A stretch of DNA of 64,000 nucleotides. Source: Rubrobacter aplysinae (GTDB taxonomy: Bacteria; Actinomycetota; Rubrobacteria; Rubrobacterales; Rubrobacteraceae). The stretch lies in contig NZ_LEKH01000005.1 in the NCBI RefSeq assembly GCF_001029505.1, forward strand, positions 1-64,000, in the 5' to 3' direction. The notes under the pieces are model-generated. The model saw nothing but the letters and a program-made list of their open reading frames with translations, was not told the DNA's origin and did no database searches. Position 1 is the stretch's first letter, and each line of letters begins with the position of its first letter. The position numbers and the translations under genes were made by a program. Below, one piece after another: positions 50,983 to 54,523 of this stretch.

Positions 50983-51864
50983 ATGATCCGGCTCGGCTAC
51001 CCGGCGCAGAACCTCTCGCTCCCCGCGTCCACCAACCACACGCTCCGGCTGGCCAATCTGCCGGATGCAAACCGCGTCCGGTCGCTGGTGCGGGAGAACC
51101 TCCGGGCGCTGGAGGAGATCCTGCACTGGAACGCCGGGCACGGCGTGTCGCTGTTCAGGATCGGGCAGAGCCTGATCCCCTTCGCCTCGCACCCGGACTT
51201 CCCGTACGACTGGGCCGTGGAGCACGCCCCGGATCTGGGGCGTGCCGGGAGCCTGGCGCTCTCACTCGGCGTCAGGCTCTCTTTCCATCCCGGACAGTAC
51301 ACCCAGCCCGGCAGCCCCAGGCCCGAGGTGGCGGCGCGCAGCGTGATGGAGCTGCGATACGTGGCCCGGGCTCTCTCTTTGATGGGCAGCCCGGACGGCG
51401 TCGTGGTGCTACACCTCGGCGGGGCCCACGGGGACCGGGAAGCCGCCAAGACCCGGTTCGTGGAGGCGCTAAGGCACGAGGAAGAGGTGCTCCGCTTTCT
51501 CGCCCTGGAGAACGACGAGCGCACCTGGACCGTGTCCGAGACGGTAGAGGTGTCCCGCCGGCTGGGCGTCCCGGCCATCGTGGACACCCTGCACCACGCG
51601 CTCAACCCCGGCGGCCTGAAGCTAGTGCAGGCCCTGGACCTAGGCCTCCCGACCTGGCGGACACGCGGCTCTAACCCGAAGCTCCACATCTCCTCCCAAG
51701 ACCCCGAGAAAAAGCCCGGGGCCCACGCCTGGGCGATACACTCGGAGGACTGGTCAGGCCTCGTCGAGGCGCTGGAGGCGGTAGACAGCCGGAGCGCGGA
51801 CGTTATGGTGGAAGCCAAGGGCAAGGAGTTGGGCCTGCCCGACGTCGGTGCTAGTCGGTACTAA
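50983..51864 (+). CDS. uvsE: UV damage endonuclease UvsE/UvdE
   Basis: Nicks DNA 5' of UV photoproducts, AP sites and some other lesions, opening an excision repair route separate from UvrABC. The TIM-barrel motifs are visible: [78 protein letters not shown] and PKLHISSQ (metal ligands His, Glu, Asp). The length is 293 residues, near the bacterial family's 280-310. UvsE is known from Deinococcus, Bacillus and Thermus, and fits a radiation- or desiccation-tolerant lineage. Confidence 0.92.
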
Positions 51865-51907
51865 TGAGTCACGTAGAGAGCCCTGAGGGCCAACGGAGGA
51901 GACGGAG

Positions 51908-52324
51908 ATGATGAACCCGGCGTGGGAGGAGATACGTGGGCTGCTGGGCGAGGCCCGCAACGTGGCGGTGGTTGGACTCTCCAACGACCCGTCGCGTCCG
52001 AGCCACGACGTCGCCCGGGCCCTGCAAGGCTACGGGTTCAGGATATTCCCGGTAAACCCCACCTTGAACGGTCCGGTGCTCGGCGAGAGGCCCTACGCCT
52101 CGGTGCGGGAGATACAGGAGCGGATAGACATCGTGGACGTTTTTCGCGGTAGCGAGAAGGTGATGCCCGTCGCCGAGGACGCGGTGGCGGCCGGAGCCCG
52201 GATGCTCTGGCTGCAGCTCGGCGTTATCAACGAGGAGGCGGCCTCATACGCCGCGGGCTCCGGACTGACCGTGGTATCCAACCGTTGCCTGAAGGTGGAC
52301 TACGCCGCCCTGGCCGGAGCGTAG
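51908..52324 (+). CDS. CoA-binding domain protein (YccU-like)
   Basis: A 138-residue Rossmann-fold protein of the CoA_binding_2 family. NVAVVGLSNDPSRPSHDVARALQGYGFRIFPVNPTL and VLGERPYASVREIQERIDIVDVFRGSEKVMPVAEDAV are typical, and LQLGVINEEAASYAAGSGLTVVSNRCLKVDY is the C-terminal signature. The biochemical role is unknown in most bacteria. The start at ATG 51908 follows GGAGGAGACGGAG. It stands 127 bases upstream of the AhpD-like gene. Confidence 0.88.
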   Translation: MMNPAWEEIRGLLGEARNVAVVGLSNDPSRPSHDVARALQGYGFRIFPVNPTLNGPVLGERPYASVREIQERIDIVDVFRGSEKVMPVAEDAVAAGARMLWLQLGVINEEAASYAAGSGLTVVSNRCLKVDYAALAGA

Positions 52325-52451
52325 AATGAGCTTTTTCGAGGCGCGCATCTTCGGGTAAGATGAGACGCGTAACCACATGCGGTGCGCGTAACGGCGCGCA
52401 AAACACGCAAAATACGGGAAACCGGGTCGAGACCCGGAGAAGGAGGTAGGT

Positions 52452-53000
52452 TTGCCCCGCACCCACGCTGTAGAGCCGGAGAACGCCCCGGAGCAGTCCA
52501 AGCCACTGATCGAGGAGGCCAAGAAGGCGGCCGGAGGACAGGTGGTCAACTTCCACCGGCAGATGGCGGTGGCCCCGGCGGCCTTCAAGGGCTACCTGGA
52601 CCTGGCCGGCACCCTCGCCGGAGGGGCCCTCAGCCGCAAGGATCAGGAAGCAATCGCGATAGCTATCTCGGACAAGCACGGCTGTACCTACTGACTGTCG
52701 GTCCACTCCGCAGTTGCGGAGCAGATGGGCCTCGACGAGTCCGAGCGCGGCAAGGTGCAGCGGTTCGAATCCGGTGATCCTGGCAGGGCGGCCCTGCTGA
52801 GGTTCGCCTACGAGGTAGACGAGACCCGCGGTCACCCCTCGGACGACGCGTTCGGGAGCCTCCGGGACGCCGGCTACACCGACGAGCAGACGCTCGAGAT
52901 CATCGCGCACGTCGCCCTCACGACGTACTCCAACTACATGAACGACTCCATCGGCACCGAGCTCGACATACCGGTCGTCGAGCCCGTACAAGGCTCGTAG
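52452..53000 (+). CDS. AhpD-like/carboxymuconolactone decarboxylase family protein, candidate selenoprotein (CxxU)
   Basis: Peroxiredoxin-linked thiol-reductase family. One frame runs from TTG 52452 (after AAGGAGGT) to TAG 53000, interrupted only by TGA 52692-52694 (codon 81). Both sides belong to the same protein: ahead is ...ALSRKDQEAIAIAISDKHGCTY, behind is LSVHSAVAEQMGL... The family motif CxxC-L-S-x-H therefore becomes CTY-U-LSVH, with the TGA at the second, peroxidatic cysteine in AhpD. The total of 182 residues matches ordinary Cys-containing homologues. A SECIS-like stem-loop follows at once. If TGA were a stop, an 80-residue piece without the catalytic pair would result. Alternatives are a recent nonsense mutation or an assembly error. 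Confidence 0.82.
52697..52736 (+). promoter_or_regulatory. Candidate bacterial SECIS element
   Basis: The upper stem CTCCGC (52706-52711) pairs perfectly with GCGGAG (52716-52721) around the four-base loop AGTT. The loop begins 17 bases after the TGA and has a G in its first two positions, as described for bacterial SECIS elements. A lower stem GTCCA/TGGGC (52701-52705 with 52726-52730) and GTCG/CGAC (52697-52700 with 52733-52736) extends the helix across small bulges. It is inside the coding sequence. Confidence 0.72.
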
Positions 53001-53078
53001 CCCACTTGCGGGGGCGGGCCTACCTGTCCGCTCCCGCACGTCTCCTACCAAAAGACACAAAAGACACGAAAGGCCGCG

Positions 53079-53756
53079 ATGCCCCACGCTATAGGCTTCG
53101 ACATCTACGGCACCCTGGTAGACCCCTTGGAGATGACCCACGAGCTCCGGGCGCTGGCCGGTGACCGGGCGGAGCGCATGTCCGAGCTGTGGCGGCAGAA
53201 GCAGATCGAGTACGCCCTGCGCCGGGGTCTGATGCGCGACTATCAGAGCTTCGGGGTGTGCACGGCCCAGGCCCTGAGATACGCTGCGGAAGCGGTGGAC
53301 GTGGAGCTGCCCGAGGCCGAGGAGCGGCGGCTGCTCGAGGAGTATCAGAACCTCCGCGCCTTCGCGGACGTTGGTCCAGCCTTAGAGAAGATGAAGGCGG
53401 ACGGTCACCGGATGGTCGCCTTTTCCAACGGGGTGGAAGAGACGGCGAGGACCCTGCTGGAGCGCGCCGGTATTCTGGATCACCTCGGAGGGATGGTGAG
53501 CGTGGACGACCTCGGCACCTTCAAGCCCGACCCTCGGGTATACGAGTATCTCGCGCAACGCCTACAGAGCCCGGTAGAACAGACGTGGCTGGTATCGAGC
53601 AACCCGTGGGACGTGATCGGGGCCAAGACCGCCGGTCTCAGGGCGGCCTGGATAAGGCGCTCCCCCGAGGCCGTCTTCGACCCCTGGGAGGTCGAGCCGG
53701 ACCTCGTGGCCGGGGACCTGCTGGAGCTTTCGCGCTCCCTCTCTCCCGCCTCCTGA
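53079..53756 (+). CDS. Haloacid dehalogenase, type II-like (HAD superfamily hydrolase)
   Basis: HAD hydrolase of the 2-haloacid dehalogenase subgroup. The nucleophile aspartate is in IGFDIYGTLVDP (residue 8-9), the Ser/Thr in MVAFSNGVEE (motif II), the lysine in LGTFKPDPRVYEYLA and the acidic loop in WLVSSNPWDVIGAKTAGLRAAWIRR. True dehalogenase activity would need a test; many relatives are phosphatases. The length of 225 residues is typical. It is the last plus-strand gene before the convergent que operon, with 26 bases between the stops. Confidence 0.86.
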   Translation: MPHAIGFDIYGTLVDPLEMTHELRALAGDRAERMSELWRQKQIEYALRRGLMRDYQSFGVCTAQALRYAAEAVDVELPEAEERRLLEEYQNLRAFADVGPALEKMKADGHRMVAFSNGVEETARTLLERAGILDHLGGMVSVDDLGTFKPDPRVYEYLAQRLQSPVEQTWLVSSNPWDVIGAKTAGLRAAWIRRSPEAVFDPWEVEPDLVAGDLLELSRSLSPAS

Positions 53757-53782: not shown

Positions 53783-54523
53783 TTATACGCCGCGCTTGTT
53801 GCCCCAGAGCAGGACGTGTAGCTGGGGCAGCATCGTGGCCTCGTTCCACCCGTCGGAGATCACCTTCTCCACCAGCCACTCGTAGCGATCCAGGAGCTTC
53901 GCGTTATCCGGCTCGGTAACGTCGTCCGGCTCCGGTCCGGGCGGGTCGTCGTTACCCACCTGCAGGTACATGGGCACGTCCGGGTGGCTATGCCCGACCT
54001 CGCGGGCATACTCGTAGTCGGCGTCGTCGAATACCACGACCTTCAGAGAGGCATGCGTATCCTTACCGGCGGCGTCGAGGCAGCGCGCGAGGCGGCTCCA
54101 GTCGGTCCTCATCCCGGAGCTCGGCGGCTTCGGGGAGACGGTCAGGTAGTCGAGAGCCGCGAACCAGTCCTTGTGGATGGTGCCCTGGGTTTCGATGGCG
54201 AAGGTGTAGCCACGCTCGCGGCCGAGCCTTATAAGCTCCCCGAGTGGCTGTATAGCCGGGTTGCCGCCAGAGAGGGTGACGAGGATCGGCTCGCCGCCGG
54301 AGAGGCGCTCGACCTCGGCGAAGACCTCCTCGGGGCTCAGGCTGCGCCACTGATCGCGGTACTCCGGCAACACGGCGAACTTCGAGTCGCACCAGCGGCA
54401 CCTGTAGTCGCACCCGCCGGTACGCACGAAGACGGTCGGCTTGCCGATCACGGCCCCCTCGCCCTGTACAGTGGGCCCGAAAATCTCCGATACTGCTATC
54501 TTGTCCCGGCTGGAGCGGCTCAA
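53783..54523 (-). CDS. queE: 7-carboxy-7-deazaguanine synthase
   Basis: Radical-SAM enzyme that turns 6-carboxytetrahydropterin into 7-carboxy-7-deazaguanine. The cluster motif lies in [15 protein letters not shown] (a CxxxCxxC spacing). [24 protein letters not shown] is the N-terminal signature. The length is 246 residues. The start is TTG at 54523, three bases after queD. The gene set queC-queD-queE leads to preQ0, for queuosine in tRNA or a 7-deazaguanine secondary product; no folE or tgt is in the window. Confidence 0.94.

Follow-up and report, generated by a model that had tools for sequence, protein, structure and literature searches.

The frame at 52452–53000 on the forward strand of the window (the whole 64,000-nucleotide stretch of Rubrobacter aplysinae DNA analyzed here) very probably encodes a selenoprotein of the AhpD-like (carboxymuconolactone decarboxylase fold) superfamily, with selenocysteine (Sec) insertion predicted from sequence. 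The computed support comprises the frame, a full Sec machinery, a conserved TGA, purifying selection downstream of the TGA, a SECIS-like element, the predicted fold, and the relay spacing. Predicted Sec insertion is almost certainly the sole explanation that fits all the evidence at this locus. We refer to the gene and its product as Sec-AhpD.

The gene starts with TTG, has a single in-frame TGA at 52692–52694, and ends with TAG at 53000 (Table 1). Read through the TGA, it encodes 182 residues (...SDKHGCTYU81LSVHSAVAEQ...), and the TGA coincides exactly with the codon for the second Cys in the AhpD motif (C78-T-Y-U81-L-S-V-H85). A mechanical list of open reading frames contains only an 80-residue frame and a 91-residue frame (ATG 52725) in this interval. 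Both observations agree with the first-pass annotation, which described two in-frame halves of one protein across a single TGA at the second motif Cys and expected normal annotation to split the gene in two. Scanning the window for additional frames interrupted by TGA returns ten further places, none of which (0/10) has a CxxU-type motif at the TGA. General reassignment of TGA is ruled out, because the adjacent HAD gene (53079..53756) uses TGA as an ordinary stop.

Table 1 Features at and around the Sec-AhpD gene.
Feature	Coordinates	Strand	Details and basis
uvsE, UV-damage endonuclease	50983..51864	+	TIGR00629, 174 bits over 124; synteny
CoA-binding (PF13380) protein, immediately upstream of Sec-AhpD	51908..52324	+	124 bits over 22.8; synteny
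Shine-Dalgarno sequence AAGGAGGT	52440..52447	+	4 nt ahead of TTG 52452; direct reading
Predicted AhpD-like selenoprotein gene	52452..53000	+	TTG, TAG, 182 residues with Sec81; Pfam CMD, TIGR00778
UGA predicted to encode Sec81 (second member of the CxxU pair)	52692..52694	+	TGA in all orthologues
Candidate bSECIS element	52695..52741	+	Stem-loop with outer pairing; MFE, fit to constraints of PMC13188914
Haloacid dehalogenase type II family hydrolase, downstream, ends with TGA	53079..53756	+	TIGR01428, 181 bits over 125; synteny

Sec-AhpD matches Pfam CMD (PF02627; 43.8 bits over a cut-off of 23) and the AhpD core domain (TIGR00778; 41.8 over 27.8). Its best-matching NCBIfam model is TIGR01926 (peroxidase-related enzyme), which 13/13 subfamily members match; the score of Sec-AhpD, 70.6, is below the curated cut-off of 81.8. 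The AlphaFold model (pLDDT 91.7) aligns with AhpD-like structures along almost all of its length; Z scores are 23.5 for 6e8l and 11.8 for M. tuberculosis AhpD (1gu9). S. pneumoniae AhpD (6e8l), S. mutans 3lvy, and D. radiodurans 6k40, solved homologues at 22–25% identity, give full-length fold matches over 174–177 residues (Z 23.5, 22.9, and 19.1, respectively), and the S. pneumoniae and S. mutans chains have C aligned to the Sec position. The relay E66-C78-Y80-U81-H85 has AhpD spacing, equal to that of E118-C130-H132-C133-H137 in M. tuberculosis AhpD. The same spacing is found in the E-x11-C-x-(H/Y)-C-x3-H relay of M. tuberculosis AhpD (1gu9, 1knc) and P. aeruginosa PA0269 (2o4d), the latter also having Tyr before the second Cys as in Sec-AhpD (PMC3141380). 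However, both proteins have Cys, not Sec, at the second position, and the motif of M. tuberculosis AhpD lies elsewhere in the chain.

In the proposed scheme, the ribosome would start at TTG 52452. At UGA 52692, SelB with Sec-tRNA(Sec), bound to the stem-loop just downstream, would insert Sec, and translation would run on to TAG 53000. The product would fold into an AhpD-like, all-helical enzyme bearing the relay given above. E66 and H85 would activate the U81 selenolate, which would attack a hydroperoxide or other electrophilic substrate; C78 would resolve the intermediate as an Se–S bond, and a thiol or lipoyl donor would re-reduce the enzyme. In AhpD, the second Cys is the peroxidatic one. 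We infer the Sec insertion event, the catalytic steps, the substrate, and the electron donor, with U81 as the attacking selenolate and C78 as the resolving residue. Both Cys of AhpD are responsible for its activity (PMC3141380).

The first-pass annotation named the product a Sec-containing hydroperoxidase or thiol reductase. The Sec part is supported, with the TGA conserved and the sel genes present, whereas hydroperoxidase is one of several possible functions of the AhpD fold. A link to radiation tolerance is speculation. The block 50983–53756 (uvsE, CoA-binding, ahpD(Sec), and HAD type II) is kept together across Rubrobacteraceae, and the HAD type II gene adjoins ahpD(Sec) in most family members. 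The block is sometimes accompanied by queE (53783–54523).

Because the HAD type II neighbor is conserved and the model resembles the AhpD-fold debrominase Bmp8, a dehalogenase or another reductase activity is a live rival for the function of Sec-AhpD. According to this proposal, which is compatible with Sec insertion, the main role would not be peroxide reduction, and the protein might be a Sec-based reductive dehalogenase or thiol reductase acting with the neighboring HAD type II protein, by analogy with Bmp8 on a halogenated pyrrole. The neighbor scores over the TIGR01428 cut-off, and the Bmp8 structures 6ohi and 6ohj rank fourth and fifth in the fold comparison (Z 19.6 and 19.4). Nevertheless, AhpD and peroxidase-related structures match better (Z 23.5–20.3), though fold does not show function, and synteny is no proof of a shared pathway. 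In addition, members of the HAD type II family often act on substrates other than haloacids. We consider the dehalogenase or thiol reductase role rather unlikely.

Orthologues of Sec-AhpD (subfamily A) are present in 14/36 Rubrobacteraceae genomes of the first search, its own genome included, and in one further genome from a phylum search; one of the 14 has the gene divided between two contigs, and L003 is the same record as L026. The orthologues, at 53–62% identity, have exactly one TGA each, and the TGA is at the same site in every orthologue where the site is present. None has TGC or TGT at codon 81, the alternative in sister strains that the first-pass annotation had singled out for checking. 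No orthologue departs from E66, C78, U81, or H85, and many positions past the TGA are likewise invariant. Purifying selection acts downstream of the TGA: in four pairs, dN/dS is 0.03–0.37 downstream and 0.07–0.35 upstream.

With one TGA as the only interruption of the frame and Cys forms common in the superfamily, the locus could also reflect an error in sequencing or assembly or a nonsense mutation that arose recently, so that the gene would encode a Cys enzyme or be a pseudogene. This is highly improbable, because the same codon would have to err repeatedly in independent genomes, and residues past the TGA are conserved with dN/dS < 0.4. In practice, the conservation of the TGA refutes the error or nonsense reading. 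Least probable of all, although GGAG lies 3 nt before ATG 52725, is that the locus makes an 80-residue N-terminal peptide and a C-terminal protein re-initiated at that ATG, as M92 varies among orthologues (T, V, E, A, or I), the active-site pair would be halved, and residues between the TGA and the ATG (L82, H85, A89, and Q91) are conserved.

We checked the genome assembly (33 contigs, 3.19 Mb, 98.9% complete, Rubrobacteraceae) by family searches. The first-pass annotation proposed a search for selA, selB, selC, and selD, and all four are present. The tRNA-Sec at C5:185230-185319 scores 61.1 bits (cut-off 47) and is called tRNA-SeC with anticodon TCA by ARAGORN. SelB (C5:185388-187190) scores 316 bits over 242 and SelA (C5:187258-188601) 488 over 268, so that selA, selB, and selC are adjacent on contig C5. 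SelD, on contig C22, scores 353 bits over 125, and its gene itself has an in-frame TGA (KAG-U-ASK).

The genome has at least seven candidate selenoproteins: two FdhA-like, two peroxiredoxin-like, two AhpD-like, and SelD. The two FdhA-like genes have TGA at typical Sec sites (RA-U-HAAS and RI-U-HSST), and the two peroxiredoxin-like genes, L152 (G000:C4) and L153 (C2), have TGA at UxxC sites (GDW-U-PYC and AGW-U-PRC). In the second AhpD-like gene (L002 1501-2037; G000:C3:10669-11205), TGA takes the place of the second Cys codon of the motif (CHYU-IPTH), and the stem TGATGCTC-GGTCG-GAGCGTCG comes after it; its relatives L095, L096, L141, and L146 also have TGA. AhpC/TSA-type proteins are present in the genome as well.

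Immediately downstream of the TGA, the stem CTCCGC (52706–52711)/GCGGAG (52716–52721), of 6 bp, closes the loop AGTT (52712–52715), which begins 17 nt after the TGA. The stem, loop, spacing, and outer pairing are all as the first-pass annotation described them. The bSECIS criteria are a loop of 3–9 nt, an upper stem of 4–16 bp, G in the first two loop positions, a spacing of 16–37 nt from the UGA, and an MFE <= -7.5 (PMC13188914), and the element, with its 6-bp stem, AGTT loop, spacing of 17, and MFE of -24.9, agrees with every one of them. For 52692–52741, the MFE of -24.9 kcal/mol corresponds to z = -3.16 against dinucleotide shuffles (1/200 as low). Folding of the 40 or 45 nt that follow the TGA also gives an MFE that stands out against synonymous-codon resampling (P = 0.024 and P = 0.005 in two tests).

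The apical hairpin alone is ordinary against synonymous-codon resampling (P about 0.2–0.25, or about 1 in 4–5 versions), because GC-rich coding of the peptide SAVAEQ commonly produces such a hairpin. Covariation in the stem is not above shuffled controls, the score for upper and lower stem combined being reached in 170/500 shuffles; double changes occur in 2/11 stem pairs, likewise not above shuffles. RNAalifold supports the 6-pair upper stem only, and L025 has a G-G mismatch within it. Synonymous conservation just after the TGA is modest (ratio 1.25 vs 1.15 elsewhere; 36th of 171 windows) and lower than just before. It is strongest at 52650–52691, just before the TGA (ratio up to 1.62). It is the conservation of the TGA in every orthologue, not the hairpin alone, that carries this sequence-based case past chance.

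Better support for a SECIS element than the Sec-AhpD hairpin alone comes from two other comparisons. In L028 and L030, the peptide TGLAGQ replaces SAVAEQ and a different 7-bp stem appears (CTGGCCT-GGC-AGGCCAG in L030), with P <= 0.002 in one test and 0.044 in another against synonymous resampling. Across nine Sec subfamilies, each represented by one member, hairpins exceed synonymous resampling (Fisher P = 4.6e-6), whereas those of the Cys controls do not (P = 0.95), a small set of seven of which five are close orthologues.

Within the Rubrobacteraceae genomes searched, no Cys orthologue of subfamily A is seen. Cys homologues include L004 and L067; Cys relatives are found in other actinobacterial families and one planctomycete, and relatives on proteobacterial plasmids are without the Sec subfamily signature. 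In the tree, for which a subfamily A query supplied the rows, this subfamily forms a single clade (98/99) within a 30-row clade (100/99) whose remaining rows are all without Sec, several of them having also lost the CxxC motif. Such nesting is consistent with a switch from Cys to Sec at the base of the Rubrobacteraceae clade.

Sec-AhpD is of the AhpD-like CxxU kind already known; its lineage and gene context are new. AhpD-like CxxU selenoproteins were described in 2005 (PMC1088965), and the Sargasso Sea and GOS surveys list AhpD-like 1 (COG2128) and AhpD-like 2 (pfam02627) (PMC1088965, PMC2398784). As in Sec-AhpD, these have Sec for the second Cys of CxxC, a bSECIS just downstream, and widespread Cys homologues (PMC1088965, PMC2398784). 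However, they are mostly marine metagenome sequences, whereas Sec-AhpD belongs to a clade of actinobacteria that has a conserved gene block of its own. The CxxU type is listed under TIGR01926 (PMC13188914), below whose cut-off Sec-AhpD scores (see above). The closest curated seleno-family among the Rubrobacteraceae paralogues is NF053654 (AhpD-like, YciW-related (seleno)protein), which subfamily D approaches (307.6 vs 310); Sec-AhpD differs from it in subfamily, because it scores only 31.8–33.1 bits. Among the papers searched, we found no description of the Rubrobacter subfamily A. Five selenoproteins are listed for R. xylanophilus in passages that do not name all of them (PMC1794560), and subfamily A may have been detected earlier among these. 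Sec-AhpD corrects a gene that standard ORF finding cuts in two, and adds an actinobacterial clade to AhpD-like selenoproteins known mainly from marine metagenomes.

At least nine AhpD-fold subfamilies in Rubrobacteraceae have TGA at the second motif position, and 15/23 genomes searched have at least one TGA-bearing Pfam CMD member. In addition to that of subfamily A, the motifs are CHYU-(I/M)PTH (one in this genome), CHYU-VTHH, C(E/V)FU-QDIN, CNYU-QSHG, CPFU-(M/L)DIG, CLFU-LTNH, GAPU-LG(F/L)H, and AEYU-GPHH. The C(E/V)FU-QDIN subfamily (L084, L086, L087, L091, and L092) is essentially NF053654, with L084 at 307.6 vs 310 bits, and the CHYU-VTHH and CLFU-LTNH subfamilies pass the TIGR01926 cut-off; the remaining subfamilies are near the cut-off of no curated seleno-family model. 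The GAPU and AEYU subfamilies (L093, L094, and L143) have TGA at the second position without the first Cys, and are possible candidates for one-Sec enzymes.

Tentatively, and with less than even confidence, we suggest that AhpD-fold selenoproteins have radiated within Rubrobacteraceae and that most of this radiation is uncatalogued. It would comprise at least nine subfamilies and at least three separate Sec/non-Sec changes, with Sec always at the second motif position. Within it, the GAPU and AEYU proteins would have to use a one-Sec mechanism, because they are without the partner Cys, and subfamily A would be fixed in the uvsE/CoA-binding/HAD block and act on something other than simple peroxide. 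So many subfamilies in one bacterial family make a natural set in which to ask what favors the retention of Sec in place of Cys, and if a single Sec is enough for the AhpD fold to function. The CPFU-(M/L)DIG subfamily is represented in Rubrobacteraceae by L138-L140, L142, L144, and L147, and a CPWU relative (L088) comes from another actinobacterial family.
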